Of a stretch of 30,670 bases of DNA, positions 1-17,237 are shown in pieces. The DNA comes from a virus, in the IMG/VR virus record IMGVR_UViG_3300046009_005233, positions 1 to 30,670 of that record; one strand, given 5' to 3'. The translations under genes were made by a program, and so were the position numbers. The notes below the pieces were generated by a model, which did no database searches, was not told the origin of the DNA, and saw only the letters and a program-made list of their open reading frames with translations. Each line of letters begins with the position of its first letter. The stretch's first letter is position 1.

Positions 1-3000
1 TGGTAATGTGTTTGTTTTATATGAAGCAAACTGTATTGGATCCGCAACTTGTAGTTGACCTGTTACGTAAGAGATATAAGAGTCCACAACTCTTCTCCTA
101 TACCCTGTTGGATTTCCTACTCTAAGGGCAACATCGAAGTCGAGAAACCCTTGTAATTGTGGCATCACATTCGAATATTGATTCTCAATAATTTTATTGA
201 AAAAATCCTCTTGATCGGCATACACACTTGGGATTGGAACCGCCATCAAACTTCTAAACATAGATTGGAAGTTTTTATAAACCTCATTCAAGTCTTGTTG
301 TTCTTGGGAGACGAGTTCATTTACTGATGTAATGATCAACGGATCAGTCTCACTGTTGTTTGGTTTGTAGTTATTCAAAGATTGTGCAAAATTTAAAAAC
401 TCAGTTTCCATTTTGTCAAAAACTGATCTTTCAAAAACCGTAAACATGTCATCAAACTTTGAATAATTACCATTGGTCAACAACCTAAAAGCGTCAACTT
501 TACCAACCGTAGGGATTAAGTTCATGTAAACATCAACTTGTGGTCTTACAATAATATTATTATTGAAATAACCATAGTTTGGCGCTTTCCAAAAAGTTCT
601 AACCGTTCCGTTGTATAAAGAATCGTTAAATGAGAGTTCTTGGGTTAGTTGACCAGCACCATTGAAACACGCTTCATTTACTTCATTGAAGTTAGAACCA
701 AACGAAGGTAAAACAAAGTAGTTTACTCTTGGGGTGGTTGGTGCATCATTACAAACTAACTTACCAGGCTCTGATGGTTCTATCGAACTTGGGACTAAAC
801 AAGAATAGGTTGTGATATCAATAGTTCTAGGTTGACCCGCAATACTTGAGGTACTTTTGAATATATTCGAATCACTTAGGTTTTGTATTTTTAAACCTTT
901 TGATATCGCCTGATTTATTTCCCCATCCGTATATTGTGTGAATAGATCATATCCATTCAAGAAAAAGTTAAAATCATTAACAGTCTTTGGATAAAATCCA
1001 ACGTCCATGTTTGTTATTTTAACACCATCAACAACAAACTCATCTTGTAGTTTTATAGAACCGATTGTTAGATTATAAACTTTTGTCACATCCGAGTTAC
1101 TCGGATCATAGTTATTTGCGTAGTTGTAGTTTGTCCAAATTGGTGATAGGATGTCTGTTTGGAGAGTTCCACTTTGGATGTATGTCTTGTATCTATGCCA
1201 AATCGACCCGTACTTTAAAACCCAAGCATATGGCATTTTGTGAACCGCGCCAAACTTTCTAAAACTCGCAAAGATGTAGTCAAGTTGACTAACCGCATTT
1301 ACATTATCAGGATTTGCTGATGATAGAGACTTATATCTTTCTCTAAATGTGGATAAAGGTAGACTATTAATAAACAAATATGCGGCTTCAACATATGGAT
1401 TCGAAGATCCTTGTTTTTGTTTAGTAACACCATATTGTATTGCATTCACCAAATAAGGTGTATTTAACATCGATGTTGTAACCGTGTTAGGTAATCTTGT
1501 TCCATCTGTGGGAACAATACCTTCAGTTGGCAAATACACGTTTCTTTGTGCATAGAACGAATTAAAACCAATACTTGGTGAAGGTGATATAGGTTTTTTG
1601 TATTCAAAACTAACAACAGGTCTTATTTGAGTTTTGTCGGTTGGGTCCTCAAAATTTGTTATTAAATTTTTTGGTTTGTAAAACTTATAAGTTTTTGTTG
1701 TATTAAATGTTTGATTGACTGTTGGTGTAAATAAGTAGTTATTAAGGTTAGTTGTATTCCACAATAAGTTCGTATACGGATATGTGTCTGTTATTATTGG
1801 AATATTCGTTGAGGTTTCAAGTAACAACTGTTCAACAACACTTGAGTTAGGGAGATTACTGAATGTTGATCGATTAGTAGATGTAATAGTTTCTAATGGT
1901 AAAATCGAGAAACTATTCTGTGTGAAGTTTCTTATGTACGGAGTTACGAATATGTCCCTTATGAATTCTTGATAAGCTAATCCCGTACCTTCATTGGAGT
2001 ATTGTCTCAGTATTGTTGGGTAAGTAAGTGAGTTTAGCGGTGAGTTTTTAAGATTGTATGTAAGTTGTGGATTACTTATACCGAGAGATGAAACAATGTT
2101 GTTCGCCTCTGTATTCGCAATGGCTTCGATTATTGAAGTTTTAACCGCAGAGTTTGATATTCTCGCAAAGTTTGTATAGAAAGAATATAAAAACTGTCTT
2201 TCATAAACTTCATAAAAAAATCTTAACTCCTCTTTGTTCACATATGATAGACCCACCGCAGGAAACTGAATCGCATTTAGGTTAAGTCTTGTCGTCAAAG
2301 CAACTTCATTGTCCTGTGGTGATGGAACTACAGGTGGTAATAATCTCTGAGCAGATCCCTTGAAGAACTCTTCGACAAACTCAACTTCAGGCCATTTGTC
2401 ATACAAATAACCTTTAGTAAGATCCACAATGGCCGGATCACCGGGATATGCTAACTCATACTTACCTTTCTTAGGATCTTCGTTTTCAACAAATATTTGA
2501 GGCCAAGGGTAAATCGGTATTTCAGCGTTTTCTAATGTTGTGTTTGATACATTTGCAGCATATGGAACATAGTCTTTACTGTCACTGTTCAAAATTGAAG
2601 TGTCAGTTCTTAATACAGCCCGTTTTCTTATAGGATCTTCTCTTACTTGCCATGCCTTATAATGAACCTCATCTATTAACCTGATGAACCCTTCTGCGGA
2701 TGCCATGATTACTGCCATGATATTCCTAACGGAAGGAATAAACCCTAATCCTGCGCTGGGTGAGGATATTGTTTCTTTTAATTTTTGAGTAATCTCGGTT
2801 TCAATGTCGTTAAGTTTTTTATCTAACTGACTCTCCATAGATCTGAGAATATTATCAAATCTATTTTGTCCAACAAAAACATAAAAGGGTTGTTTAATTT
2901 CTTTTAAACCATCGGTTGTAACTTCAACTGTTATTGATAAATTTTTTAACTCATTTGATATAAAACTTGTAACCTCTATCTCCGTTGGGTTTACTATATT

Positions 3001-4443
3001 TAACTGAGTTCTCATTGTTTGAACCCAATCAATTTGGTCAAAAGTTACGTCAGGTATTACAACGGTATTATATGTTATAGGATTGTCTATTTGTAAATTT
3101 TTTCCTCTTAACTCACCAAAAGTACGATTTTCATCAAGTCTTGTATTATACTCTGAAATGATTGCTTTAAGTTTACTAACCCCCTCATCTCTACCCCCTT
3201 GATCCAAATCCTTTTTGAATCCATAGATTAAAGAACCCGAATCTTTTAAAACATAAGGTTTAGGGTTTAGGTATTGGACAAACCACGAGATTTTATCTCC
3301 ACGTACTTTGGAAAAGTATTGTCTAAGATACTTTCTATATACTTGACCATCTGTTAAAGGTTGAAAGTCTGCCTTACCTTTATAAACATCCAAAATGTCT
3401 TGTTCAAGTTTTTGTAACTTGTAACCAAGTTGGGCAATTGTATATCTTGGAAAACCTTTTGGAATGAGTCCTTTGACCTCATACTCATCATACATTTCTT
3501 TGATTTTCTGATATCCTCTTGAAGAGACAACTTCCTGTGAAAGGACACTGTCACTAATATCAGAATCACCACCAGTTAAACCCTGATTCAATATTTGACT
3601 TTCTGTTTCACCTCTACTTGTTTCGGTACCAGTAAAACTTGAAGTGACGTTGTATGTTGTGGTGTACATATGGGGTAATGCAATAAGAGTACCCAAAGAA
3701 ATCTCATTCAGTATATTGTATTTATACCCAAAAAACTGACAAGTGATTTGGTAGTTACCACTGAATGAATTGAAATCGGCGGTGAACTTATGAAGGTTTA
3801 ACTGATATCTTATTGCCTGACCATAATAACCTTTGAGTGTAAGATAGAATACGGGGTATGGTAAGTTGAAAAACGCTGCGTATGGGGACTGATCCCCTTG
3901 TTCAAATAAAGCCTTACCTTGAATGTCTTCCATTCTGATAATAACTTCGGGTACAAATGACATATTCGTTTTTACCTCGATTGATGTCATCCCTAACAGT
4001 CCAGGGTCTACCGTTCTCCCTCTTTCATCTGAAACCACAGATTGTTTATAGAATTGTTTACCATCTGTAGTATCAACAATAGTTTCAAACTTTTGTAATC
4101 TTGCATTCTGTGAAGTCGCACCTAAACCAGTCAAATCATCATAAAACCCAACGTTCAAAAACTCATCACCATTTGGTTTTAAAAAATTGATTTTTGCCAA
4201 AGAAATTGTACGGATGTTGTCCTGTGGATTACCACCAATAGCAAGTTTTGTCCTTGGTATGATTTCCGCCTCCAAGTTAGCATACATCACCAAGTTTTCG
4301 TGATCTACGAGTCTTTCCTCAACAATTTGTCTTCCGTTAGTACCTATTTTAGTTGTTTTGTTTGGATCAACTAAAATAATATTGTTATAAGCGGTTTCAA
4401 CATAGATGTTTCCCGAGTTGTCTGCTAATGAGTTACCTGCCAT
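1..4443 (-). CDS. giant baseplate/tail structural protein, partial (C-terminus off window)
   Basis: An uninterrupted reading frame of 1481 codons starts with ATG at 4443 and has no stop before base 1, so the protein is longer than 1481 residues. The start overlaps the end of the gp53-like gene by 11 bases, which suggests translational coupling. The N-terminal ~260 residues are beta-rich, with a stretch around residues 150-250 (VPEVIIRMEDIQG, then YPVFYLTLKGYYG) that reads like a tail or baseplate hub-type domain. A helical, charged segment follows around residues 520-560 (MESQLDKKLNDIETEITQ). The rest is rich in Asn, Thr, Tyr and Phe, typical of phage structural proteins. I recognise no enzyme motif. 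Its position directly after gp53-like supports a baseplate or tail-tip role; the family is not identified. Confidence 0.85.
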   Translation of the reverse strand, partial: MAGNSLADNSGNIYVETAYNNIILVDPNKTTKIGTNGRQIVEERLVDHENLVMYANLEAEIIPRTKLAIGGNPQDNIRTISLAKINFLKPNGDEFLNVGFYDDLTGLGATSQNARLQKFETIVDTTDGKQFYKQSVVSDERGRTVDPGLLGMTSIEVKTNMSFVPEVIIRMEDIQGKALFEQGDQSPYAAFFNLPYPVFYLTLKGYYGQAIRYQLNLHKFTADFNSFSGNYQITCQFFGYKYNILNEISLGTLIALPHMYTTTYNVTSSFTGTETSRGETESQILNQGLTGGDSDISDSVLSQEVVSSRGYQKIKEMYDEYEVKGLIPKGFPRYTIAQLGYKLQKLEQDILDVYKGKADFQPLTDGQVYRKYLRQYFSKVRGDKISWFVQYLNPKPYVLKDSGSLIYGFKKDLDQGGRDEGVSKLKAIISEYNTRLDENRTFGELRGKNLQIDNPITYNTVVIPDVTFDQIDWVQTMRTQLNIVNPTEIEVTSFISNELKNLSITVEVTTDGLKEIKQPFYVFVGQNRFDNILRSMESQLDKKLNDIETEITQKLKETISSPSAGLGFIPSVRNIMAVIMASAEGFIRLIDEVHYKAWQVREDPIRKRAVLRTDTSILNSDSKDYVPYAANVSNTTLENAEIPIYPWPQIFVENEDPKKGKYELAYPGDPAIVDLTKGYLYDKWPEVEFVEEFFKGSAQRLLPPVVPSPQDNEVALTTRLNLNAIQFPAVGLSYVNKEELRFFYEVYERQFLYSFYTNFARISNSAVKTSIIEAIANTEANNIVSSLGISNPQLTYNLKNSPLNSLTYPTILRQYSNEGTGLAYQEFIRDIFVTPYIRNFTQNSFSILPLETITSTNRSTFSNLPNSSVVEQLLLETSTNIPIITDTYPYTNLLWNTTNLNNYLFTPTVNQTFNTTKTYKFYKPKNLITNFEDPTDKTQIRPVVSFEYKKPISPSPSIGFNSFYAQRNVYLPTEGIVPTDGTRLPNTVTTSMLNTPYLVNAIQYGVTKQKQGSSNPYVEAAYLFINSLPLSTFRERYKSLSSANPDNVNAVSQLDYIFASFRKFGAVHKMPYAWVLKYGSIWHRYKTYIQSGTLQTDILSPIWTNYNYANNYDPSNSDVTKVYNLTIGSIKLQDEFVVDGVKITNMDVGFYPKTVNDFNFFLNGYDLFTQYTDGEINQAISKGLKIQNLSDSNIFKSTSSIAGQPRTIDITTYSCLVPSSIEPSEPGKLVCNDAPTTPRVNYFVLPSFGSNFNEVNEACFNGAGQLTQELSFNDSLYNGTVRTFWKAPNYGYFNNNIIVRPQVDVYMNLIPTVGKVDAFRLLTNGNYSKFDDMFTVFERSVFDKMETEFLNFAQSLNNYKPNNSETDPLIITSVNELVSQEQQDLNEVYKNFQSMFRSLMAVPIPSVYADQEDFFNKIIENQYSNVMPQLQGFLDFDVALRVGNPTGYRRRVVDSYISYVTGQLQVADPIQFASYKTNTLP

Positions 4444-4756
4444 AATAGAAGAAATGGTTCTCTACCGTTGTTTTATAGTCTTGTAAAGAAGTTACTAAAG
4501 GATATGGAATACTCAACACTGCACCGTCATAAATGTTATTTTCCAAACCACCAAACTCAGGGTTTGCTTGAAGTATTAACCAACCAAAAAACGGGGTACC
4601 ATAATATTCTTGAGAAACCTTGTCTAATCTACTCACCGCAACTTTATAAACATAAACCTTGTCGGAGGGTTTTCCATTTAGTGTGACAAATGGAACAACT
4701 GTTTGTTGTCCATTTACTTGAAACAAAGTATATCTGTTGTAGTACTGAAATGCCAT
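4433..4756 (-). CDS. gp53-like baseplate wedge protein with LysM-like core
   Basis: This 107-residue protein fits the T4 gp53 / LysM-like baseplate family, small proteins that help join baseplate wedges. The diagnostic stretch is the central segment at about residues 40-72: a Tyr-rich strand, then SRLDKVSQEYYGTPFFGWLI, then QANPEF, followed by a 'GAVLSIPYP' ending. Family members show the same order: D/R-L-D, Y-Y/F-G, W-x-I, A-N-P, G-x-x-L-x-I-P. Its ATG overlaps the stop of the 1683-residue gene upstream by one base (TAATG), and its own end overlaps the next gene by 11 bases, so three baseplate genes are tightly coupled. It is shorter than T4 gp53 (about 196 residues), so essentially only the LysM-like core is present. 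Confidence 0.75.
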   Translation of the reverse strand: MAFQYYNRYTLFQVNGQQTVVPFVTLNGKPSDKVYVYKVAVSRLDKVSQEYYGTPFFGWLILQANPEFGGLENNIYDGAVLSIPYPLVTSLQDYKTTVENHFFYYGR

Positions 4757-7700
4757 TACAAGAGTTGTACTTTACTGGTTATCACATTTCCATTAGCAAC
4801 ACCCCACTTTGAGGTATCGTTGTCGGAGTTGTTCTTGAGACCCAAATTCTTGATTAGTTGAATCTGTGCGTTAGTTGGGGGTGGATTTAATGTTAATCTA
4901 TAAGTTAACACTCTTTTCTTTTCAAGAGTAAATGGCGTGTAGACCAAGTAGATTGGTAGTTTTTCTTTTTCGAAAGCGTTCATGTATTGTTCCGTAACTT
5001 GGTTTTCTTTGACAAAGATCGGTCTCATTTTTGTCTTCCAATAAGCATCAAACTCAACATCGATTGCGGTGTTACCTGGTGTTAACAAGTTAGTTCCAAC
5101 AATATTACTGATGATTGCGTTTTTGAATGTTTCATATTGATTGTCATCTATAACATCTTTGGAAAGTATGTAGTATTCTCTCTTAACAGATTGATCATTC
5201 CACGCAGTTTGTGATGTTGTAAATGGATAAAAAACGTCTTGAGCTAATCCGTCAGCTTGATTTTCAGGTACCGCAAAATATCCTGAATAGTTATCGGATC
5301 CACTAGCCCAATCAAATTTAGTGAATATTGTGGTGTAGAACGCTTGAAGATCTTGAGCAACTTTTTGAATGTCTGTGTTCATTTCAACCCAAGTGTTTGT
5401 TATTCCAACCGACGCAGGTGAAACATCTGTTGTTCCTGATATCGAATAAACAACAACATTACCGTTTGTTTGTTGGAATCCATCAGTTCCTTCACTTGGG
5501 TTGGTTACCTCATAGAAACTAACGGTATTTGCCCTTGCGAGTTGTTGAATGTATTGAGTCTGAGCTTCTGTTATACCTTGGATTATTGTGGATAATGCGC
5601 TAGCAAACTCATTTTGTTTTTGTTTAACATAGACTGTCATATTGTCTTTGACTTGTCTAATAACTTTTTTATTAAAGTTTTTACTTGGATCGCTCAACCA
5701 AACAATAAAGGCATCATTTTCGTTTTTGATGTCATTCAAGTAGTCTGCAAATACTTTGTTAATGACAGTTTCAAAAGATGAAGGTTTACCGTAAAGTGAA
5801 ACGTTTGAACCAGTTCCATTGGCTAGTACCGCCCCGTCGACGTACCTTCTTGTAATGGCGAACGATTGTCTTACCGCATTGTTATACTGTCTTAGAACAT
5901 CTTTATTCTTTGACACAATAGTATTGAAGTATGTCTGTGTACCACCAACCAAATTAGTCATAAAGGATTTATATTCGATGGTTCCCGTTGTTCCAGTTTG
6001 TTGAATATCAGTAGTTAAAATTCTACCAATAGTTTCCAAGTTACTTTGAGGTTGGTTGTTTTCAACTTGGTTAATCGTTGGTGGTGGAACTTCAATGTTA
6101 AGAGCTTGTAAGAACTCTTTATCCAATATCTGATAACTCGTATCCGTTACGTCAGCTCTATCATCGTAAATTTCTGTATTAGCATAGTAGTTGAAACTCA
6201 AGGCATTTTGTAACTTGTCAACAGATTCTTTTAATCCTTGACCCCCAACAAAGTTGAATGAAAACTGTATATTCGCAATCATCGGTTGAACTCCAATACC
6301 CTCAGGGTTTAAATCCAACTCCTCGTATGAAATTTGTAAGTTTTCAGGAACAATTTTAGAATGCCAAAAGTCCCCCAATCTAAGAACCAAAATCGGTGGT
6401 GTACCAAATGAGGTATTAACCGCGTTGTTGTACTGTAAGGTTTGATTTCCTTGCTTATCAACAGATACGGTAGGGATTGTATCACCAGGCCTCATACACT
6501 GTTGTAGAAAGGTTAATCTTGAGTTTAACCCCTCAGGTGTCATTGAGTGAAACGCGGGGTGGAAGAACTTAAGTTTTTCTTTTAAACTATCATACACCAT
6601 TGGTGTTTGTTCTTTAACTACTTCAAAATAGTCACATTCTGTCAAAAGATTTCTAAGAACTCTTTTGGTGATATTATCTCTAAGGACAGTTTCATCGGTA
6701 ATGACTTGTTGGGTTACAGTTTTTCTATCAACGTTCGAACTTACTTGTTCAATAACTTTAGGATCTGTTGGGTCAACTCGAGAAGATTGTTTAACAGGTG
6801 ACGTATCTCTTAGTGTAATATTTTTAATGGCAGTTCTTCTACATGCCATAGCATTTACAGAATATACCTCAGCATTTGATTGTGCTAGTGAATCACCCAC
6901 AAGTCTTGAGTCACATTGGAATGTATTAAAAGATGATGTTCTACTTATTGGTGTTACTGTCGCATTTTCTCCGAGAGTTCTACCAGTGACAAGGTTAAGT
7001 CTTCCCGCACTGAGATACTGACCCAATTGTTGAAACCCTGTAATATATTCAACAACTGAAGTCATCCTTCTTTGTGACAAAGAAATATTATATGTATCAC
7101 TGGCGGGAGCTGAGGCACTACTTTCTAATAGAACTTCAACCAACAGATACTGATTGTTTTTTAACTCACTATTGAGTCTAACCAACATCTCGTCCAATTG
7201 ACTTTTATTATCTTCAATCACCTCTTTAAAGAATAACGCCACCCCTTCTTTGTCGTTTGAGTTATTTTGGTATTCTTGTTTTATGGTTGATGATGTATAG
7301 GCGTTGTAGTAAATTTGATAGGGTTGTACAACCGCATCTGGTTTTGGGATATCGTTGTCGTAGTAATACGCCATCGAAATATACTTCTTGAAATCACCCT
7401 CTCCTGAGTTTTGTGCGGTATTTGTACTTGTGTTAGTGTTATTACCACCGGGAGTTCCGCCAGCTGTAGTGGAATCCACACCAGTTTGGATCGTGTTAGT
7501 AAGATATCTTGTCTCTTCAGTTGTGATATTTTTATACTGAATTTTTTTCTGTATTTCAAACAAGTCGTTTGGATTGATTGTATAATATCTCTGAGCTAAC
7601 TCATATAAGTCATACTTTCTACATCCGGCAAAAAACGAATCCAATATACCATCAACCCTCGAACGAGTTGTTTCATCCGACAAAACTCGGTTAACTATTA

Positions 7701-9807
7701 AATTAAGAACTGATGGATGATCAACAACAATTTTCCACGACAATGAACCTGATCTTGAAGTATTGTTGTAAGTAAACACAGGTTCAGGTCTTCCGATAAA
7801 GTCGGTTGTTTTAAAACCTGATCTTACACTTTCACTGTATGTTAATCCATATGGGGGAAACCACATAACCCTACCACCGTTAGGTCCTCTTTCACAAACA
7901 GGTAAGTCAGCCCAAGTGAAACCTGGTCTATTTGATGTTCTCCACGCTAAGTTCTCAAGTGAGAACATGTATTTTTTAGCATAACCATCGGGTCCTGGTA
8001 TAAGGTTAGTCGATGCCTGACCTCCCTCCATTTTATTTGGAGCGATGTTTAAGTTATAAGTTTTATCTAAAATGGAGTATGCAAACTTACGACCTTCAGT
8101 TGTCATTCCATCGGTTTTCTGTAGATCGTTATATTGAAGATAAGGGGTATCTTTAGTAAAAATCCTACAATACTCAGCACCTCTTTCTTGTCCAACTTCA
8201 CCAATGTATCTGATTACTTTTGAACCTTTAGTGATCTCTTTGTACCCATCATTGAATACTTTAGATACCTGATCTATGGCATTTCCAACGTGTTGTAACC
8301 TTCTACCACCTCTTGGTTGAGAGTCGATGATACGTTGTGTATCATCCATGATAGATCCTTGTTTAAAGGAAAAGTTAGTTGATTCTGTTGGTTGATATCC
8401 TGCTGGACTAAAATCGGGATCCTCAGATACTGCATCACCACCAGGTCCTACGTATTTACCCGCATTCCCTTTGAACTTGGGTGACACCCAAGTAAAACCA
8501 CCCTCAACACTTCCTTGACTTATTAACGAATCGGCATTTGCACCTAATCTGAGTGCTTTACCAGGTCCTTCGTAAAGTTCGGCAATCTCATTAGGTCCGT
8601 AAACAGGTGCTTTAATTTCTCTACCAAACTGATCAACAGGTAAATCACCAACAGGAGATAGTATGTTACTCGGTTCGGTTTTAACAGAACCTATGTAATA
8701 ATCACTGTTCTGTTCACGAGCACCTCTTAAAACACCCGCAACTCTGTCAAATATAGTTCTATCATAACCAGGTTTGAACTGATTAAACTCTAGATTTCTG
8801 AAGAGTAGGGACTTTTGTCCCGTTCCCGTATTTTCCAAAAATAACTCTGAACCACTTTTGGTTGATCCAGCCAACCTAGCAAAAAATCTTCCTATCCCTG
8901 AAAACAAGTTGGCACCAGCGTAGGCACCGGCAATCTGTTGCGTTGTTGACCCTACTCTTGCGGGGGGTTGGAAGTAGTCACCAGGTATTGTTGAAAATGG
9001 GGCATAAGTTCCTGATAATCGGTTGATGATTTGCGCGGCACCACCCACCAAGTTTGGTGAAACCGTAATAGTGTAGTTAGGTTCCAATAGGGGAACCCTA
9101 CCAGTTAAAAGTGCATATACATCCTCACCTCCATTTACGTTCAGAAAATTTGCTCTACCGATAGTTTCTTGTTCTATCTGTCGTTGAATATTTTTTTGAA
9201 CTTGTAACCTATAAAAACCCGATCCTAATTTTGCAAGGTATGAATCACTCGATAATAAACCGTTACTACCTAAAGGATCATTTTGTAGAAATAATGATAT
9301 GGCACTGTACGAAGATGGGTTAAAGTTTGGATAAGGTTGTGCGTTTGTAGTTCTACCGTTATTTTGTTGAAGTATTTCTAAACTTGTGAAGAACTCCGCC
9401 GAATCTAAAAGTTGGTCTGTCGAAGCATACGCATTTAATGGTTTCCATGCACCTTGTATACCAGGAAAACCTTGTAGTGCTGCCTGGTAACCTTGTCCTA
9501 ACTTATCAGCATCATCATACCCATATTCACCCTCATTCGAGTTTGTGTTTTTGAGAGTATTCACATCTCTCACCTGAGTATATCCACCCCACTGACCATA
9601 TTGATTTAGTGGATACAGGTTGTTTGCGAAGGTTGGTACGTCAATCAGTACATCAGGAGAGTCAACAGGAGCCAAGTCCCGTAGGATTGTTTCATAGTTG
9701 ATTGGGGGGTTTGCACCTGTTGGTGATTTTTTATATGGCACCAAGTTTCTTACAACAAGTTTTTTTCTGAAAGTTTCTGAACTTGGAAAATCTAATGGAC
9801 TTGGCAT
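4756..9807 (-). CDS. large baseplate/tail protein with internal OmpA-like domain
   Basis: A 1683-residue virion protein. Two segments resemble tail-tube-proximal baseplate proteins: residues ~645-700 (MWFPPYGLTYSES, then SGSLSWKIVVDHPS) and ~1136-1180 (LRLGDFWHSKIVPENLQISY, then NPEGIGVQPMIANIQFSF). Between them, residues ~805-955 look like an OmpA C-terminal (peptidoglycan-binding) domain: a 'YYYDNDIP' strand, a helix, LLVEVLLESSAS, YNISLSQRRMTSVVEYI (family pattern N-x-x-L-S-x-x-R-A-x-x-V), then GRLNLVTGRTLGENA. The usual Asp of the binding pocket is not obvious in the 'LESSAS' loop, so binding is uncertain. The C-terminal third carries long helical, Gln/Asn-rich stretches. The gene lies 39 bases after the tape measure gene and overlaps gp53-like by one base. 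A TATTTATAAATA element sits just upstream of the start. Role in baseplate: inferred from position and motifs. Confidence 0.8.
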   Translation of the reverse strand: MPSPLDFPSSETFRKKLVVRNLVPYKKSPTGANPPINYETILRDLAPVDSPDVLIDVPTFANNLYPLNQYGQWGGYTQVRDVNTLKNTNSNEGEYGYDDADKLGQGYQAALQGFPGIQGAWKPLNAYASTDQLLDSAEFFTSLEILQQNNGRTTNAQPYPNFNPSSYSAISLFLQNDPLGSNGLLSSDSYLAKLGSGFYRLQVQKNIQRQIEQETIGRANFLNVNGGEDVYALLTGRVPLLEPNYTITVSPNLVGGAAQIINRLSGTYAPFSTIPGDYFQPPARVGSTTQQIAGAYAGANLFSGIGRFFARLAGSTKSGSELFLENTGTGQKSLLFRNLEFNQFKPGYDRTIFDRVAGVLRGAREQNSDYYIGSVKTEPSNILSPVGDLPVDQFGREIKAPVYGPNEIAELYEGPGKALRLGANADSLISQGSVEGGFTWVSPKFKGNAGKYVGPGGDAVSEDPDFSPAGYQPTESTNFSFKQGSIMDDTQRIIDSQPRGGRRLQHVGNAIDQVSKVFNDGYKEITKGSKVIRYIGEVGQERGAEYCRIFTKDTPYLQYNDLQKTDGMTTEGRKFAYSILDKTYNLNIAPNKMEGGQASTNLIPGPDGYAKKYMFSLENLAWRTSNRPGFTWADLPVCERGPNGGRVMWFPPYGLTYSESVRSGFKTTDFIGRPEPVFTYNNTSRSGSLSWKIVVDHPSVLNLIVNRVLSDETTRSRVDGILDSFFAGCRKYDLYELAQRYYTINPNDLFEIQKKIQYKNITTEETRYLTNTIQTGVDSTTAGGTPGGNNTNTSTNTAQNSGEGDFKKYISMAYYYDNDIPKPDAVVQPYQIYYNAYTSSTIKQEYQNNSNDKEGVALFFKEVIEDNKSQLDEMLVRLNSELKNNQYLLVEVLLESSASAPASDTYNISLSQRRMTSVVEYITGFQQLGQYLSAGRLNLVTGRTLGENATVTPISRTSSFNTFQCDSRLVGDSLAQSNAEVYSVNAMACRRTAIKNITLRDTSPVKQSSRVDPTDPKVIEQVSSNVDRKTVTQQVITDETVLRDNITKRVLRNLLTECDYFEVVKEQTPMVYDSLKEKLKFFHPAFHSMTPEGLNSRLTFLQQCMRPGDTIPTVSVDKQGNQTLQYNNAVNTSFGTPPILVLRLGDFWHSKIVPENLQISYEELDLNPEGIGVQPMIANIQFSFNFVGGQGLKESVDKLQNALSFNYYANTEIYDDRADVTDTSYQILDKEFLQALNIEVPPPTINQVENNQPQSNLETIGRILTTDIQQTGTTGTIEYKSFMTNLVGGTQTYFNTIVSKNKDVLRQYNNAVRQSFAITRRYVDGAVLANGTGSNVSLYGKPSSFETVINKVFADYLNDIKNENDAFIVWLSDPSKNFNKKVIRQVKDNMTVYVKQKQNEFASALSTIIQGITEAQTQYIQQLARANTVSFYEVTNPSEGTDGFQQTNGNVVVYSISGTTDVSPASVGITNTWVEMNTDIQKVAQDLQAFYTTIFTKFDWASGSDNYSGYFAVPENQADGLAQDVFYPFTTSQTAWNDQSVKREYYILSKDVIDDNQYETFKNAIISNIVGTNLLTPGNTAIDVEFDAYWKTKMRPIFVKENQVTEQYMNAFEKEKLPIYLVYTPFTLEKKRVLTYRLTLNPPPTNAQIQLIKNLGLKNNSDNDTSKWGVANGNVITSKVQLL

Positions 9808-9846: not shown

Positions 9847-11574
9847 TCATTTTCTCAACGATGTGTTCTGTTTTTTCATCTCCTCTTGAACAACTAATGT
9901 CATTTTCTGTTTGAATGACTCACTGTTGATATAATCTGACAAAGCCTTTGTATCCAAACCTTGTTGTCCTTCAACCCTTATAGTAAATGAACCTCCAAAA
10001 TTAACATTTCTATTTTCTGTTGTGGTTCTCATACCATCCACAGCCTTACCCCCAAGATCTTGGAATTTCTTAAGAGCAGCATCCATATAACTTTCCTCAG
10101 TAGATCTTGGACCACCCTCAAAGTTTAAGTTATCCAAATATGTTTGAACCCTATTCGCAACCTCAGTATTTTCAATACCACTTCTCAATCTTTGGTAAGA
10201 TTGTTCAAGAGCCTCTGTATTTCCTTTACTCGCCTCTACAACCAAAGTTCTCAATTCGTCTCCAACACCTTCGAAGACCTTTCTCATTTCTTGACCTGAG
10301 GGAAGAGCCCCTTCCGTATAAGCACCCCCAACCGCAGTATCAAACAATCTTCTCGAAGCTTCACCTAACCTTATTATTCCTTCCTGTCCCGCCAAAGCAT
10401 ATGCTAGTTGTAACGGTAAAGCTTTGACGTCTCTAGCCATCATGTCAAACGTCCCAAGTTGAGCTCTGGCGATATCCTCCATCGTTTTCGGACGTGTTTC
10501 TTGTATTTCTCTAAGTCTTTCAAACTCATTTTGAGTCAAATCAGTTAGTTTCTTTTGTTCGAGAGTTCCCCTTTCATTTTGTAGTTCCACAAAATATTCT
10601 CCACCGGGACCCATTTTAGCCATGTTGGCAACTAACATTTTGTCTTCTTCCGACGCTTGTATATTAAAGTCAATTTCATTCAACCTTCTATCCATATCAG
10701 AAGCAGCCAAAGCTGTCTTGGTCATATTTTCAAAACTTATATTAGTTTCAGTTGCCAACTCTTTCATCAATCGGATACTGCCAGGGTTAATTTTGAATGA
10801 ATTAGTCTTATCATCGAAATATGTAAACTGCTTTGTCATTTCGATGATTGAATCTTGTAATCCTTGTGGGTCATTAATTGATTTATCCATTAAAACAAAC
10901 GGATCAACTAAGTCACCAGCAGCAACACCTAATCTTTGAAAAGCCGAGGCCATTTTGATTGCCCCGTCAGGGTTCAGAACATCTTCGGCAAACTTTGCAG
11001 TTTCTCTCATATCGTACCTCAGCATTGAGGCTTGAGCGGTCATTTTTGTAAGACCTATAACACCGTCTTCAAAATTGAATCGGTTCATCATATCCATGTT
11101 ACGAGTCATCTCTTGTACGATGGTCGTAGCATTTAAACCAATACTCTGTACATAAAGAATGGAATCTTGCAAGTTTTTACCAACTTGGGATATTTCAACC
11201 CCGGCTTGCGCAAAATTGTTGGTGATTGTTTCAATATCAAAATCACCTAAGGCTTTAGACGCAGCGGTTAACTCTACTATTGTTTCTGTTGTTGCAACAA
11301 TATTTCTTCTAGATCCAGCAGCGATTGCGTTGATGGTGTTACCTATATCTGTAACTTCACCACCAACACGTATTACACCGGCAACACTATCAGAAACCGC
11401 TGTGGAGAACTCCGTAGCACGTAACCTACCCTCAGTAAAAGTTTTGTTAACCTTATTTATTTCATCGTAAAGACGTGAAATATTTTCCGTTAAATTAGCC
11501 GCGGTCGGTATAGCATCTTTCCAACTACCAAACGCTTTACCAATTTCGTCAATATCTCCGGGTTCTAAAGCCAT
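9847..11574 (-). CDS. tail tape measure protein (gp29-like)
   Basis: A 575-residue, almost entirely helical protein with little aromatic content in its first half, many Ala, Glu, Asn and Thr, and heptad-like stretches (for example NLTENISRLYDEINKVNKTF near residue 28 and EEEMKK-like charged ends). It lies directly after the gp26-like gene and its frameshift extension, the classical place of the tape measure in tailed phages. At about 0.15 nm per residue, 575 residues correspond to a tail of roughly 86 nm, close to T4 (gp29, 590 residues). The C-terminal ~50 residues form a separate beta-plus-helix piece (GSFTIRVEGQQGLDTKALSD). Function in setting tail length and leaving through the tube is family knowledge; the assignment rests on position, length and composition, not on a recognised signature. 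Confidence 0.65.
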   Translation of the reverse strand: MALEPGDIDEIGKAFGSWKDAIPTAANLTENISRLYDEINKVNKTFTEGRLRATEFSTAVSDSVAGVIRVGGEVTDIGNTINAIAAGSRRNIVATTETIVELTAASKALGDFDIETITNNFAQAGVEISQVGKNLQDSILYVQSIGLNATTIVQEMTRNMDMMNRFNFEDGVIGLTKMTAQASMLRYDMRETAKFAEDVLNPDGAIKMASAFQRLGVAAGDLVDPFVLMDKSINDPQGLQDSIIEMTKQFTYFDDKTNSFKINPGSIRLMKELATETNISFENMTKTALAASDMDRRLNEIDFNIQASEEDKMLVANMAKMGPGGEYFVELQNERGTLEQKKLTDLTQNEFERLREIQETRPKTMEDIARAQLGTFDMMARDVKALPLQLAYALAGQEGIIRLGEASRRLFDTAVGGAYTEGALPSGQEMRKVFEGVGDELRTLVVEASKGNTEALEQSYQRLRSGIENTEVANRVQTYLDNLNFEGGPRSTEESYMDAALKKFQDLGGKAVDGMRTTTENRNVNFGGSFTIRVEGQQGLDTKALSDYINSESFKQKMTLVVQEEMKKQNTSLRK

Positions 11575-11612: not shown

Positions 11613-11762
11613 TTAATTTTGGTTTTCCTCCAACCATTTATCAAGAAGATATTTACGCATAAATATTGGAATCTTCATAAAGTCGGAATAACTTATATGA
11701 AGAAGTTTTGATAGGTAATAAAACTCGTCTAATTGGCCTTTTCTATAATCAGAAGAAGGGAC
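11613..11762 (-). CDS. probable frameshift extension of the gp26-like tail assembly protein
   Basis: A short frame, +1 relative to the gp26-like gene, is open from 11783 to the stop at 11613-11615. It has no ATG until 22 codons from its end, so ordinary initiation would miss most of it, yet the sequence is protein-like: VPSSDYRKGQLDEFYYLSKL, then HISYSDFMKIPIFMRKYLLD, KWLEENQN. This ending resembles the short helical T part of tail assembly chaperones (aromatic/SD-x-M-x-x-P-x-x-x-R-x-x-L). The zero frame ends nearby at 11749, after GAC TTT TTT CGT CCC TTC TTC TGA. Phe-tRNA slipping from TTT to TTC at 11766-11763 (+1), or a -2 slip on the six Ts, would join the frames. Coordinates assume the shift after 11764. 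The gene order tube / this pair / tape measure matches the G/GT chaperone locus. Confidence 0.6.
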   Translation of the reverse strand, partial: VPSSDYRKGQLDEFYYLSKLLHISYSDFMKIPIFMRKYLLDKWLEENQN

Positions 11763-12492
11763 GAAAAAAGTCGACCCCAAAACCTACATTCACTGTAAGT
11801 TTTTCTCCAGACGGGGCCAAAACAACTCTTTTTAAATCCAATCGAGGTTCATTATCGTTCATAAACTTTTTGATGAACTTTGAGTCTGCGATTGGCATAG
11901 TCTCAATAAATTTCGCAATTTCTCCTTTATCTTCGTTTCCGTTGATTGCGATTATCTCCCTTTGAAGTCTCCATGTTCTTCTTGGAACAGTTCTACCTTG
12001 TGGATACGAATCCGCCATGGCACCGATCTCTGAAATCTGAGAGTAACTCAGAGGTCTCACTTTTACAGTTGTTTGAGACATAGGTAGTTGAACACTGAAC
12101 GTCCCATCTTCAGACGGAGTTTGTCCTTTTATAATATTCAACTCGTCCAACCTAACATTTGATTTGAATGATTTTCCTGTTTGTGGATCTGTTAGGTTAA
12201 GTTCCATGTCAGGTCCAAAAGCGGTGTTTCTCAAAAATATGAGGATAGCTTCGATGTCACCTTCAATCATTTCCTCGGGACGTAAATCACTCTCAAATAT
12301 TTTGTTTCTCAACAAATTGATTGTCATGTCAGTACCCCCCGCCATCAAGATGTTTTCATCCGATGCGGTTAAGTATCCGACTTTGAGTGACTTTTTTTTG
12401 TTTTTATAGAAAACTCCACCTGATGGTAAAGTAACCACGTCGTGTGGAACAGAGAAATCCTGTTGTGAGTATTGTTGTGTATTTTGATCCAT
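11749..12492 (-). CDS. gp26-like baseplate hub / tail assembly chaperone-like protein
   Basis: A 247-residue protein resembling the T4 baseplate protein family that contains gp26 (Pfam T4_baseplate). The visible hallmarks are the N-terminal 'LPSGGVFYKN' at about residues 22-31, 'LTASDENIL' at ~41-49, 'LLRNKI' at ~60, and 'GDIEAILIFLRNTAFG' at ~79-94, matching the family's LPSxG, T-x-x-D-E, D-x-x-x-L-L-x-x-R-x-x-x-F/Y-G layout. The position between tail tube and tape measure is that of tail assembly chaperone G in other phages, and a frame +1 to it continues past its stop (see the extension entry). The start codon lies directly after the T-run of a strong terminator hairpin, without a visible ribosome binding site, so transcription into this gene depends on readthrough or on an unseen promoter. 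Confidence 0.7.
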   Translation of the reverse strand: MDQNTQQYSQQDFSVPHDVVTLPSGGVFYKNKKKSLKVGYLTASDENILMAGGTDMTINLLRNKIFESDLRPEEMIEGDIEAILIFLRNTAFGPDMELNLTDPQTGKSFKSNVRLDELNIIKGQTPSEDGTFSVQLPMSQTTVKVRPLSYSQISEIGAMADSYPQGRTVPRRTWRLQREIIAINGNEDKGEIAKFIETMPIADSKFIKKFMNDNEPRLDLKRVVLAPSGEKLTVNVGFGVDFFRPFF

Positions 12493-12556: not shown

Positions 12557-13045
12557 TTAGTAAATTAACACACAACGATCCATTCTCAAACTTGCTGTAA
12601 TCGTTGCCAAGTTGTCTTGACTATAAGACAACTGATTGAAGTTAACGTCAGTCAAGAAAGTACCATACATTATCCATTTTTCGACAACAACACCTGTTGG
12701 GTCTAACATCTCTAAGTCGATGTCTTTTTTATAACCCGCAGCATAACCCATACGACCTGTCACAGATTCTGCGTGTAGACGAACCCATTCCATAAGTGCC
12801 TGAGCCGCTGAAGGACCAATAGGATCACGGAATGTGACGGGAATAGGTTCCCAATTAAATCTACCGGCAACGTATGTTGACGTGTTTAAGAATTGGATTT
12901 CGGTTGACCCAATTCTGATGTGTGGACGTGCAGTTGATTCTACAAACCACTCATTAATACCCAAATTCGAGGGGAATCTCAAGATGAACCTGTTTTGTCT
13001 TTTGGGTTCATAGGGTATGGGCATTTTCATTAGTAAATCTGCCAT
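12557..13045 (-). CDS. tail tube protein (gp19-like)
   Basis: A 162-residue protein, matching the length of T4 gp19 (163). It polymerises into the rigid inner tube of the contractile tail. Visible family features are the N-terminal 'PKRQNRFILRFP' strand, 'VESTARPHI' (the P-x-I turn typical of tube proteins) at about residues 36-44, 'WEPIPVTFRDP' at ~65-75, and a C-terminal 'GTFLTDVNFNQLSYS' strand near residue 127. It is followed by a strong terminator, in line with the need for many copies, and preceded by an ACTATTTATAGT promoter-like element and an A-rich leader. The HAD-like gene lies between it and the sheath gene, where T4 has the two side by side. Confidence 0.9.
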   Translation of the reverse strand: MADLLMKMPIPYEPKRQNRFILRFPSNLGINEWFVESTARPHIRIGSTEIQFLNTSTYVAGRFNWEPIPVTFRDPIGPSAAQALMEWVRLHAESVTGRMGYAAGYKKDIDLEMLDPTGVVVEKWIMYGTFLTDVNFNQLSYSQDNLATITASLRMDRCVLIY

Positions 13046-13153: not shown

Positions 13154-13978
13154 CTAGTATTCTTTTTTTATTCCTCCTTTAGTAGAGTATGTTTTAATTG
13201 GTTCATCTAGTTTTTCAAAATGTTGCTTCATAGCTTCTACATTGCGTTCATCATCATCTGAAAAGCCTATAGTTGGCATTTTAACTGGAGCAAATTTAAA
13301 TCCTAGATCTTTCTTTAAAAATGCTTTCTTTTGTAATAAAGATGCCATTCCTTTAACATAAAGAACAAAATCTTCCATCGCCCTTACCTTTAACTCTTCA
13401 GGTTTCGCAGCACCTTTCTCTTCACCAAAACTTACAGGGTGGTACTTATTCATTTCTAAGTAAGATTTAATAAGTTCTGTTTCATCCATTTCATCTTCAC
13501 CCGCAAACTCACGATATTTCTTGAGGTTTTTTACAAGCTCATCTTTGTTTAATCCCTCATAGTTTTTGATGATCATATTATAGATGGCTTGTTTAATGGT
13601 GTTTGGGTTGTGACCTCTCGCGGTGATTATCGCAAAAATAGACCCGTTATTTACGGCTTCCAGAAAATCACTCCACGCCGGTCCCGGGTTTGATCTTAAT
13701 GAATCAATCAAAAAATCTTTATCTCCCTTTACAGTAAAATCCCTAAACGGGTCTGAAGAGTATTCGACAACAGTATCCCCTTTGTAGATGAATGGTTGTT
13801 CACCAAGTTTATCTCTCACAAGAGCAAAATCTTCAGTTGAAATACCGATTTCTTCACCTTCATCTGTAAGGGCATAAATCTTAGTTGGCATATGAACAAT
13901 ATTGTCATCCCAATCAAACGCGTAGTATTTTAGATCAGGTGTTCCGTCAACTATTTTTTCTAAGAGTCTTGTTTTCAT
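13154..13978 (-). CDS. HAD-superfamily phosphatase-like protein
   Basis: A 274-residue protein with haloacid dehalogenase (HAD) motifs. Motif I is 'YAFDWDDNIV', with Asp22 as the expected nucleophile and Asp24 as general acid; motif II is 'AIITARGH' with its Thr near residue 118; motif IV is 'IGFSDDDERNV' at ~236-246, supplying Mg-binding acids. A Lys for motif III may come from 'AAKPEELK' near residue 197. Between motifs I and II lies an insert (residues ~35-105) and between II and IV a helical cap-like region. The substrate is not evident; polynucleotide 5' or 3' phosphatases are one possibility because T4-like phages carry such HAD enzymes. The gene sits between sheath and tube, isolated from the sheath by a terminator, so it looks like an inserted enzyme gene in a structural operon. 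Confidence 0.8.
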   Translation of the reverse strand: MKTRLLEKIVDGTPDLKYYAFDWDDNIVHMPTKIYALTDEGEEIGISTEDFALVRDKLGEQPFIYKGDTVVEYSSDPFRDFTVKGDKDFLIDSLRSNPGPAWSDFLEAVNNGSIFAIITARGHNPNTIKQAIYNMIIKNYEGLNKDELVKNLKKYREFAGEDEMDETELIKSYLEMNKYHPVSFGEEKGAAKPEELKVRAMEDFVLYVKGMASLLQKKAFLKKDLGFKFAPVKMPTIGFSDDDERNVEAMKQHFEKLDEPIKTYSTKGGIKKEY

Positions 13979-14024: not shown

Positions 14025-17000
14025 TTAAATATTTTCGAAAGATGCTCCTGTTGGAGTGATCAAGAACTCAATATCGATGAATTCAAGTGCTTTCGTTGGT
14101 TTTAAGTAGATCTTACCTGTCAAAGTGTTTCTATCCAAATCTTCAGGTGTAGAAGCCACAGTAACACGGAAGTCGTATAAACCTCTATCTCTTCTGATAG
14201 CATCCAAGATTGGGTTCACCGAATCCAAGAACTGTTGTCTAACAATCTCGTCATTCTGTTCGAACAATAATCTTACCGCCACAGCTGAAATAAGTTTTCT
14301 TGCTTGTAGAAGAAGACGTCTAACATTAAGTCTATTCAATGCGGTGTCTCTGATTTGAAGTGTTTTGTTACCCCAAATAACCGTACCCACGTCAGAGAAT
14401 GTTGCGATCGGGTTGATACGACCTTGATACAATGTGTCTCTATCTTCCTGAGTCAACTTTAATCTTGCCTTCACAGAGTTAACAAGACCTCTTGTGTAAC
14501 CCGCAGATGCGAACCATGGGAAAGAAATGTTATCTGTAAGTGCCAAGTTTCTACAAACTTGTCCTGTTGCTGGGATATAGATCTGAGTGTTGTTTACCGT
14601 ATCACGTTCTAAAATCCAAGGATAGTATGTTGCCGTGTAAGAAGAATCAATACCGGTTTGATCCAAGTTATCTACGGATTGTTGAGGATAGATGATTTCA
14701 TACTGACTACCTGCATCTGCCGTGTACATGTTATAGTCAGGTGTTGTTGCTATATAAACAGAATCCGCTCTTTCATTTTCTACCATACCAATAGCCAACT
14801 CAACTAAGTTACTGTTGTTTACATAGTCAATACCTGGTGTTGCAAACACGTTAATGTTTGTAGATTCGGGGTTATTGAAAGAAAGAATACCTAACAAGTA
14901 TGCGTAGTAGTCAGTGTTTGCAAAATCTTGAGTATTGTTAGCGACTACGATTCGTTTGAATGTACCATCACCACTAGCCGTTGGGTATCTCTGAGTTTGA
15001 GTCGATCCTTGTAGGAAACCACTCGCACCTAACGCGAATCTGTCTTGGTTAGTTCTAAATGTTCTGTAAGCATCCCATCCATCAAATCCACCTTGGAAAA
15101 CAAATGAGAACTTACGAGAATACAAGAAATAGTATGGGTTTTCTTGCGTTGTTGGTTCTGCATTAAAGTTAGCAACACCACAAATAAACGCGGGTGTTCC
15201 ACTTGTTGCCTGTAAGTTACCAATAGTAATGACCGTTGCACCTGAGTCCATGTGGAAACCTTGAGTTTGGTAGTTCCATGGAATAGATGTTGTCGCAGTG
15301 TTCCAGTCAGTTACAGGATTTTGTCTTCCTTTGTATTGAACAAGATCTGAGTCAACACCAAACTGAGAAGAAATACCAAGATAAGTTCTTCTAACAACAT
15401 CACCGTTAGATGTTACTTGATTGACACCGTAAGGAGAACCGAAAGGAGGATCCCAAATAACTTGTCCTGGAAAATAATACTCATTCTTAATTATTGCAAA
15501 TGGTGAAGGGTTTGAAACACTACCGTACACTCTGTTTTCCAAACCACGGAACCCACAAGGTAATGCATCGATTGGTGCCTCATCAGACATTTCTACCATT
15601 ACAAATGTAGAAACTAAAGGATATTCACCATCAAACGAACCGATTTTTTTACCAACAAAACTATTTGACCCTATGTCTAATGTACAGTTAGTATATTTTT
15701 CATAAACAACAGGGTTTGCATCTGTGTCGAAGAAATCACGAACTAAGACATCAAAAGTTTGATTTGCGAAAGAAATGTTTGCTATAGAAATTTTTACCTC
15801 TGTGTTAGCTGAGTTACCATCAGAAATGGTTCTAAATCTGAACAAGTCAAATACTTTATTACCTCTAAGTTCAGAAACAACCCAAGGAGTGATCGGTGTT
15901 TGATATTGTTCAAGATACCAAGCAATAGATGTTGTTGATTGTTTGACACGTGCTTCGGGTAATGAAACCAAATCACAGTTTAGACCTCTGATGTAACTCT
16001 TATTATAACCATAGTTTAATAAACCAGGGAAAACCTCCTCAACAAAGAGAGGAACTTCGAATCTCGATTTATTAAAGTTAGAAATACCAAGTACTTTAGA
16101 AATGTAGTTAGAATCACCAAGACCCATAGATACGTCAAAACTAAAGTCTTGACCAAGATATGTTACACCTGAAATTTGGAAAGTTGCGTAAGGATTAGAA
16201 TTAACCGCTGAGTAAGGACCCGTGCAAATCATCTGAACATCAGTGAGACCTGTCACTTGATATTGAGGACCATGTTGTAACGCAGAATATTCAGAGATAC
16301 CTCTTGATCTCATTGTTGCAACCACTAAGTTTTGGTATTGGGTGTAGGGTGTTGCACTGTAAATGAAAATTTCACCTGATAAAGTTCCTGCAAAAGTGTT
16401 GGATGCTCCTGTGAAATAGTTTGTGATTTGAGCATTCATTGAGTAACCCGAATAAATTTCAGATGATCCCGAAAAATCAAAGTTTGCATAAAACCATGGA
16501 TCGTTAATACCATCACAAAGTTCGTTGTTCTCAAGATTCAAATTATCAACCCCATACACGTTGTTCAAGTTTGGATATGCACCAAACAGTGCCAAGTAAT
16601 CTGCACTTGGTAAAGAACCGTAGACTACAGATGTGTTACCTGAGATTGCCGTGTTACCTGATACACTTCTTGCAAAAGAATACAAATCAGCCGCAATGGT
16701 AGATGTAGAACCATCATTAAGTGTATATGTTGTACCTGAGTTAACACCTATGATTGCAGGTGCCGATGTGGTAAAACTAAATGAGTTTGTTCCTCCTGTT
16801 GAACTACCTGAGAAATTCACGGTAAATGGTATTGATGATGCCACAGTATCAATATCGATAGTTTCACAATCAGGATTCGCAGTTACACGGATAGACCAAG
16901 ATGGACCCGCGTCATATCCGCTAAGACCTAAAATTCTTGTTACAAAAAGTTGGTTAGACTGTTGGAGATATGCTTTAGCGATGTAGGCTGCTTCATACTT

Positions 17001-17237
17001 GGGGATTTGAGTTCCAATAAATTTTTCAGGAACGGTTCCACCAAAATAAGTTTGGAACTCATCGTAGTTTGTTATAAAAATAGGTTCGAAAGCCGGACCT
17101 TTAAGAGTTTCGCCAACCAATCCTAAGGTTGTTACTCCAACACTCTGTGCCACAAAAGAAAGGTCAGTTTCTGAAGTGTATACACCAGGTGATACGAATA
17201 CCTTTTGGTTAACTTGATTTGTTACTTGAAAGAACAT
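14025..17237 (-). CDS. tail sheath protein (gp18-like), enlarged
   Basis: A 1070-residue contractile sheath protein. The N-terminus has the family signature 'KVFVSPGVYTSETDLS' at about residues 12-27, then 'VGVTTLGLVGETLKGPAFEP' and 'FQTYFGG'. The C-terminus carries the conserved sheath core: 'FSDVGTVIWGNKTL' near residue 945, 'LNVRRLLLQARKLISAV' near 970, and a final 'GKIYLKPTKALEFIDIEFLI' strand region. T4 gp18 has 659 residues, so about 400 residues are extra. These lie in the middle (roughly 120-550), are rich in Ser, Gly, Thr and Asn, and look like added surface domains. A T-run terminator follows. Start at 17237 chosen because MFFQVTNQVNQ leads directly into the conserved signature. Confidence 0.9.
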   Translation of the reverse strand: MFFQVTNQVNQKVFVSPGVYTSETDLSFVAQSVGVTTLGLVGETLKGPAFEPIFITNYDEFQTYFGGTVPEKFIGTQIPKYEAAYIAKAYLQQSNQLFVTRILGLSGYDAGPSWSIRVTANPDCETIDIDTVASSIPFTVNFSGSSTGGTNSFSFTTSAPAIIGVNSGTTYTLNDGSTSTIAADLYSFARSVSGNTAISGNTSVVYGSLPSADYLALFGAYPNLNNVYGVDNLNLENNELCDGINDPWFYANFDFSGSSEIYSGYSMNAQITNYFTGASNTFAGTLSGEIFIYSATPYTQYQNLVVATMRSRGISEYSALQHGPQYQVTGLTDVQMICTGPYSAVNSNPYATFQISGVTYLGQDFSFDVSMGLGDSNYISKVLGISNFNKSRFEVPLFVEEVFPGLLNYGYNKSYIRGLNCDLVSLPEARVKQSTTSIAWYLEQYQTPITPWVVSELRGNKVFDLFRFRTISDGNSANTEVKISIANISFANQTFDVLVRDFFDTDANPVVYEKYTNCTLDIGSNSFVGKKIGSFDGEYPLVSTFVMVEMSDEAPIDALPCGFRGLENRVYGSVSNPSPFAIIKNEYYFPGQVIWDPPFGSPYGVNQVTSNGDVVRRTYLGISSQFGVDSDLVQYKGRQNPVTDWNTATTSIPWNYQTQGFHMDSGATVITIGNLQATSGTPAFICGVANFNAEPTTQENPYYFLYSRKFSFVFQGGFDGWDAYRTFRTNQDRFALGASGFLQGSTQTQRYPTASGDGTFKRIVVANNTQDFANTDYYAYLLGILSFNNPESTNINVFATPGIDYVNNSNLVELAIGMVENERADSVYIATTPDYNMYTADAGSQYEIIYPQQSVDNLDQTGIDSSYTATYYPWILERDTVNNTQIYIPATGQVCRNLALTDNISFPWFASAGYTRGLVNSVKARLKLTQEDRDTLYQGRINPIATFSDVGTVIWGNKTLQIRDTALNRLNVRRLLLQARKLISAVAVRLLFEQNDEIVRQQFLDSVNPILDAIRRDRGLYDFRVTVASTPEDLDRNTLTGKIYLKPTKALEFIDIEFLITPTGASFENI

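Follow-up and report, generated by a model that had tools for sequence, protein, structure and literature searches.

Comparative evidence for a probable programmed +1 frameshift in a gp26-family tail gene of a T4-type phage module

The window analysed here is a stretch of 30,670 bases, the virus record IMGVR_UViG_3300046009_005233, and a T4-type tail module is encoded on its minus strand. Our interest centres on a gp26-like gene (11749-12492, minus strand), which runs from an ATG start to a TGA stop and specifies a short, G-like product of 247 aa that matches PF12322 at 27.6 bits, above the curated cutoff of 24.5, and phrog_150 with an E of 1.1e-10. Its upstream neighbour is a gp19-like tail tube protein (12557-13045, minus strand; phrog_4542 tail tube, E 3.8e-25), and the module also includes a tail sheath protein (14025-17237, minus strand; phrog_23 tail sheath, E 6.2e-55). 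Downstream, an ORF of 575 aa (9847-11574, minus strand) stands where a tape measure gene would be expected, an assignment made on position only: it matches nothing in PHROG or Pfam, and BLAST against the tape measure of Flavobacterium phage immuto gave no match. Annotated tape measure genes occupy the corresponding downstream position in immuto, SP-15 and LIS04.

Other parts of the window are harder to name. Beyond the tail module, on its downstream side, two large ORFs (1-4443 and 4756-9807, both minus strand; 1481 and 1683 aa) are without a PHROG match, as is a 274-aa ORF between tube and sheath (13154-13978, minus strand), while 4433-4756 matches a baseplate wedge family. A 791-aa ORF (27569-29944, minus strand) has weak matches to phage glucosyltransferase and methyltransferase families, and could possibly be a fused glycosyl/methyl transferase.

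At the end of the gp26-like gene a second reading frame, displaced by +1, is open over 56 codons from stop to stop (11613-11783, minus strand) and overlaps the end of the gp26-like frame. The part that would be added as a T-like extension (11613-11762, minus strand) comprises 49 codons and a TAA; joined after codon 243, it would give a predicted fusion of 292 aa. The junction reads GTC GAC TTT TTT CGT CCC TTC TTC TGA, in which the putative slippery site TTT TTT C (11763-11769, minus strand) is followed by GT, making CGT the A-site codon, and the zero frame ends four codons later. Among the 9,196 codons of the whole window, in-frame TTT TTT C occurs only twice, and so does in-frame TTT CGY. A sequence-only reading of this locus had claimed an overlapping +1 frame of about 50 codons at the end of the gene, a TTT TTT C within the overlap with the zero frame ending four codons on, no useful start codon, and a G/GT-like gene order. 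The first two of these claims held, the third held for the window, and the fourth held across relatives, with the upstream tube clear and the tape-measure ORF recognised by position.

How well is this arrangement conserved? A first search for relatives, with patterns placed mostly away from the junction, yielded 36 viral contigs, and the +1 extension is kept in all 34 that reach the junction, at identities from 100% down to 25%. A second search took the junction motif itself as its pattern, which skews the loci that it finds towards retention of the zero-frame motif; it returned 580 candidate relatives, the best 80 of which were retained. Both searches together provide 112 loci at >=50% identity, and in 112/112 the +1 frame is open, the core TTT CGY CCY is present and both frames are kept. 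Measured on the extension downstream of the zero-frame stop, pN/pS is 0.22 in the +1 frame, versus 0.82 and 1.99 in the other two; the extension alignment has no stop in the +1 frame, versus 204 and 219 in the others, and its substitutions fall 32/14/54% on codon positions 1/2/3. Comparison thus shows two conserved coding frames, and the pN/pS of 0.22 shows that the extension is under purifying selection. Sequencing error, a pseudogene or chance were each considered as the origin of the second frame, and are ruled out by its conservation across relatives together with the pN/pS. Indeed, an indel, which would have refuted the sequence-only reading, was seen in none of more than 100 contigs.

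Conservation is also strict where a slip would be placed. Among 49 nonredundant genes, TTT at codon 243 and CGY at codon 244 are each invariant (49/49), and in the rest of these genes CGT and CGC together make up only 6% of Arg codons, with AGA at 74%. Dual coding is of course responsible for part of this invariance. In five loci a +1-frame stop directly precedes ACT TTT TTC, and because of this the shift is confined to about seven codons. Within that stretch only TTT_C, at codon 243, gives perfect re-pairing of the P-site tRNA (UUU to UUC) in every sequence, while TTT_T at codon 242 re-pairs perfectly only where codon 242 is itself TTT. A further observation that would have refuted the sequence-only reading is loss of the slippery site with the frame kept; TTT_C is retained in 112/112, and variation is limited to the preceding TTT, which becomes TTC in one clade (L012-L019) and in L097, giving TTC TTT in place of TTT TTT with the extension retained. 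A re-pairing site of the UUU_C type with a restricted A-site codon is what a +1 frameshift of this class calls for, and in this respect the locus qualifies, although the slip and its direction remain inferred. UUU_CGU is the shift site of influenza PA-X, where +1 shifting has been demonstrated, and the same paper predicted a class of +1 signals built on UUU_C (PMC3498833). For the window group, the predicted tryptic peptide crossing the junction of the +1 fusion is LTVNVGFGVDFFVPSSDYR.

Just upstream lies an RNA stem-loop (11774-11817, minus strand), built from a 6-bp outer stem, GCCCCG/UGGGGU, and a 9-bp inner stem, and ending 4 nt before the T-run. The Gly codon preceding the site is GGG in 49/49 genes, versus 9% of Gly codons elsewhere, an invariance that neither coding frame explains; its pairing partner, a CCCC located 12 to 13 codons upstream, is just as conserved, and the second stem is enclosed between the two. 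Six hairpin pairs change on both sides, and there are 48 double-change cells versus 14.9 in shuffles, a value reached by 0/500 shuffles. Every covariation measure falls when the partner is displaced by 1 to 3 columns, with the -3 slide retaining some signal, as expected from codon periodicity. In the window, the fold of this region reaches -17.3 kcal/mol (z -3.1), and RNAalifold, unaided, predicts the outer stem only. Comparison therefore shows a covarying hairpin; that it stimulates the +1 slip is likely, but is an inference. According to an earlier report, a hairpin that re-forms behind the ribosome stimulates +1 shifting and mimics an internal Shine-Dalgarno duplex (PMC6321510). No common conserved 5' hairpin was found in the distant +1 phages that we examined, and some of the -1 phages described below carry 3' stem-loops (Atu_ph07, z -4.0; S-CAM8, z -2.4).

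One neighbouring element remains puzzling. Codons 228-230, TCA GGA GAA (11803-11811, minus strand), are almost invariant, with GGA in 49/49 genes; they resemble a Shine-Dalgarno sequence (AGGAG) and are also the 9-base complement of TTC TTC TGA at codons 246-248. Covariation supports neither a Shine-Dalgarno-like nor a pairing use, leaving the conservation unexplained. We make no claim for a pseudoknot around the site formed by 9-bp pairing of UCAGGAGAA (codons 228-230) with UUCUUCUGA (246-248): dual coding already fixes the 3' side, and no compensating change is visible by eye on the 5' side.

One objection is that the small ORF is a separate gene, reached by re-initiation or from a weak start near the junction and coupled to gp26 translation. 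A normal start codon in relatives would have told against the sequence-only reading, and an ATG does lie in the +1 frame near the junction in 81/112 relatives, for which a separate small protein is not excluded; likewise, TAATG overlaps in the more distant Vibrio D510, Cygsa01 and LR756511 make re-initiation possible there. However, 20/112 have only GTG or TTG as a +1-frame start and 11/112 have no ATG, GTG or TTG at all. In the window, the +1-frame ATG (AATGTAG) runs at once into TAG, and a single TTG is the only start-like codon of that frame before the conserved part. Since those 11 relatives lack starts and the window ATG meets a TAG, independent initiation cannot be the common mechanism. 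The separate-gene model also gives the conservation of TTT_C, GGG and the hairpin no role, and T4 gp51 carries both parts as one chain. We consider this alternative very unlikely.

Two further rivals turn on the T-run itself. A -2 frameshift would also reach the extension, adding one extra Phe (DFFFV, as opposed to DFFV for +1); six T residues would let Phe-tRNA step back two bases, and -2 shifts have been reported for phage Mu (PMC5009743). In the TTC TTT clade and in L097, however, a -2 slip would require Phe-tRNA to pair with UCU, whereas +1 on UUU_C re-pairs perfectly, and the extension is kept nonetheless. The sequence-only proposal of '+1 (or -2)' is therefore narrowed to +1, and there is little to recommend the -2 route. 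Alternatively, RNA polymerase might slip on the run and alter the mRNA while the ribosome keeps its frame, and most members do have a homopolymer run; but this run is only six long, and a C interrupts it in one clade that retains the extension, leaving this explanation all but excluded.

Programmed +1 frameshifting in a gp26-family gene, yielding short and long tail chaperones, is thus the reading that we favour, and we hold it to be very likely (a probability of roughly 0.88) on comparison only, with no protein or reporter data. The sequence-only interpretation as a whole is in this sense supported by comparison and not by experiment. Most ribosomes would finish the 247-aa gp26-like short form. 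In a fraction of them, the Phe-tRNA in the P site would slip from UUU (11764-11766) to the overlapping UUC (11763-11765) with the uncommon CGU/CGC codon still unread in the A site, probably aided by the RNA hairpin re-forming just behind the ribosome. The slipped ribosomes would then read on in the +1 frame and add a small helical domain at the C-terminus, giving the long form of 292 aa. In architecture, the long form would be the counterpart of T4 gp51 and the short form that of gp26; by inference they would also be the equivalents of GT and G of lambda-like phages, with the tape measure protein and the tail tube as their putative targets. We infer, and have not seen directly, that ribosomes slip here, in which direction and how efficiently they do so, that the products serve as chaperones and that the hairpin plays a part.

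Structure prediction gives only a modest hint of a chaperone role. Folded separately with AF2, the short product reaches pLDDT 84 and pTM 0.79, and the extension alone is predicted as three helices (pLDDT 90). Comparing the short product with solved structures, VIA-align places B. subtilis YqbN first (3klu; Z 5.7, 83 residues, 3.6 A), which we take to be a prophage tail-chaperone relative, and the HK97 tail assembly chaperone next (2ob9; Z 5.3, 93 residues, 6.0 A). The third-ranked match has a Z of only 2.5. Both leading matches point to tail chaperones, albeit at modest Z values (<6), and the fold alone suggests that the protein belongs by descent to the G family. Among predicted viral structures, those matching the short product are gp26-like baseplate hub proteins. 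A sequence search of solved structures with gp26-like and gp51 profiles returned chance-level matches only, and a fold search with the extension gave one chance-level match.

The split gene is by no means confined to the window group. A +1 split is found in Microcystis phage Mel-JY01, immuto, Bacillus phage SP-15, Listeria phage LIS04, Rhodothermus phage RM378, Streptococcus phage vB_SagM-GXN1 and LR756508, and a -1 split after T_TTT_TTC in Agrobacterium Atu_ph07, the cyanophages S-CAM8, S-RIM8 and P-HM2, Vibrio Bakedbeans, Stenotrophomonas DLP6, Acidovorax ACP17 and Aeromonas Aeh1. A joined CDS is annotated in none of the database records that we examined, where the extension tails are either missing or listed as short ORFs (for example, SP15_046, immuto gp038 and the 30-aa P-HM2 'gp51'). 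Three loci are without a canonical shift site, CBA120 (L139, 1980-2200), Vibrio D510 (L142) and Cygsa01 (L130); here the tail is in the -1 frame, with ATT TTC or CTT TTC instead of the heptamer, and CBA120, unlike the other two with their TAATG, has no ATG at the overlap. In cyanophage S-SCSM1 (L127, 2160-2374) the tail is in the +1 frame despite a -1 heptamer, T_TTT_TTC, a mismatch for which an indel or re-initiation is possible. The gp26-like protein of Atu_ph07 (L044, 2447-3286) also has a weak match to phrog_1854, 'PmgB-like head morphogenesis' (E 0.005), in keeping with a proposal that PmgB of P1 is a tape measure chaperone (PMC9024508).

These split genes invite a fresh look at T4. There, gp26 (208 aa) matches PF12322 from end to end, and gp51 (249 aa) matches it over residues 1-201, after which comes a tail of 48 residues; the former has the short architecture and the latter that of the long form, a gp26-like domain plus tail. 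Along phrog_150, which has a length of 282, the matches of most short products end at 232-235, that of T4 gp51 spans 13-280, and fused proteins reach 274 (Mel-JY01), 276 (S-CAM8) and 281 (Bakedbeans), with the fused window protein extending its match to 245 only. Cyanophage-type tails align with the gp51 tail (probability 94%, E 1.3e-7; phrog_634, E 9e-30), and the window-type extension does so weakly in hhalign (probability 4.8% alone; 76%, E 2e-5, with pooled families). Whole-length hhalign of the fused family against gp51 found no global match; the link to gp26 and gp51 rests on PF12322, phrog_150 and a direct tblastn match of S-CAM8 gp26 to T4 gp26 (E about 3e-6). Comparison on these grounds shows that the short form is homologous to gp26 and gp51. 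T4 has two separate, divergently oriented genes and the window a single gene with a putative frameshift, so that T4 seems, by inference, to encode as two genes what its frameshifting relatives make from one. The sequence-only reading had noted neither the conserved 5' hairpin nor the use of a -1 shift in T4-like phages, nor that gp51 shares the architecture of the fusion.

The cyanophages add a further case. Their gp51 was described as about 20% of the usual length and without the first 200 residues (Sullivan et al. 2010, PMC3037559), a truncated gene in that account. This small ORF, right after gp26 and similar to the C-terminus of gp51, equals the -1-frame extension, and we reread it as the frameshift tail of gp26. 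The same paper has gp51 missing only in Aeh1, but Aeh1 does carry a -1-frame tail of gp26.

A bolder reading, which we consider somewhat more likely than not, takes in the gp26 family as a whole. In this view the family would supply T4-type and jumbo myophages with their G/GT system and would have begun as a single frameshifted gene (-1 on T_TTT_TTC or +1 on UUU_C), replaced in T4 and its close kin by the paralogous 26 (G) and 51 (GT), with the +1 shift of the window group driven by a conserved 5' RNA hairpin and UUU_CGY. Few recoding events are conserved as widely as those of frameshifted tail chaperones, and G-T frameshifting has been described as widely conserved in long-tailed phages 'except T4' (Atkins et al. 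2016, PMC5009743). If the reading is true, T4 becomes a derived case inside the rule, its frameshift replaced by a second gene, which would explain both this reputation as an exception and the short 'truncated gp51' of cyanophages. It would also suggest a role that can be tested for gp26 and gp51, whose function is unclear, put right gene calls across many T4-type records, and provide a case from a bacterial virus in which +1 frameshifting on UUU_C has an RNA stimulator upstream. The guess at a chaperone function is already in circulation, since a T4 review names gp26 and gp51 hub assembly chaperones (PMC3004832) and the Acinetobacter phage AM101 record annotates both as 'tape measure protein assembly chaperone'. 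We found no description of frameshifting in the gp26 family in the open-licence literature searched; subscription journals lay outside that search, and a prior description is not excluded.

Of the known systems, the nearest parallel for the shift site is influenza A PA-X (UCC_UUU_CGU, PMC3498833), which shares UUU_CGU, the re-pairing of UUU to UUC and the +1 direction. PA-X, however, belongs to a eukaryotic virus and has no recognised stimulator, whereas the window comes from a bacterial virus, and its group has TTY as the preceding codon and carries a conserved upstream hairpin. For the system as a whole, the natural comparison is with lambda G/GT and its counterparts in HK97, P2, Mu and SPP1. 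The window family differs from these in belonging by sequence to PF12322 (T4 gp26) and to no G family, and in a putative shift on UUU_C with a 5' hairpin, for which the ratio of products has not been measured; with no protein data, that the pair works like G/GT, in ratio as in function, is inferred. There are also likenesses: two frames overlap in the interval from the tail tube to the tape-measure position, a -1 or a +1 shift, depending on the phage, would add an extension at the C-terminus, and the predicted fold of the short form bears a modest resemblance to the HK97 chaperone.
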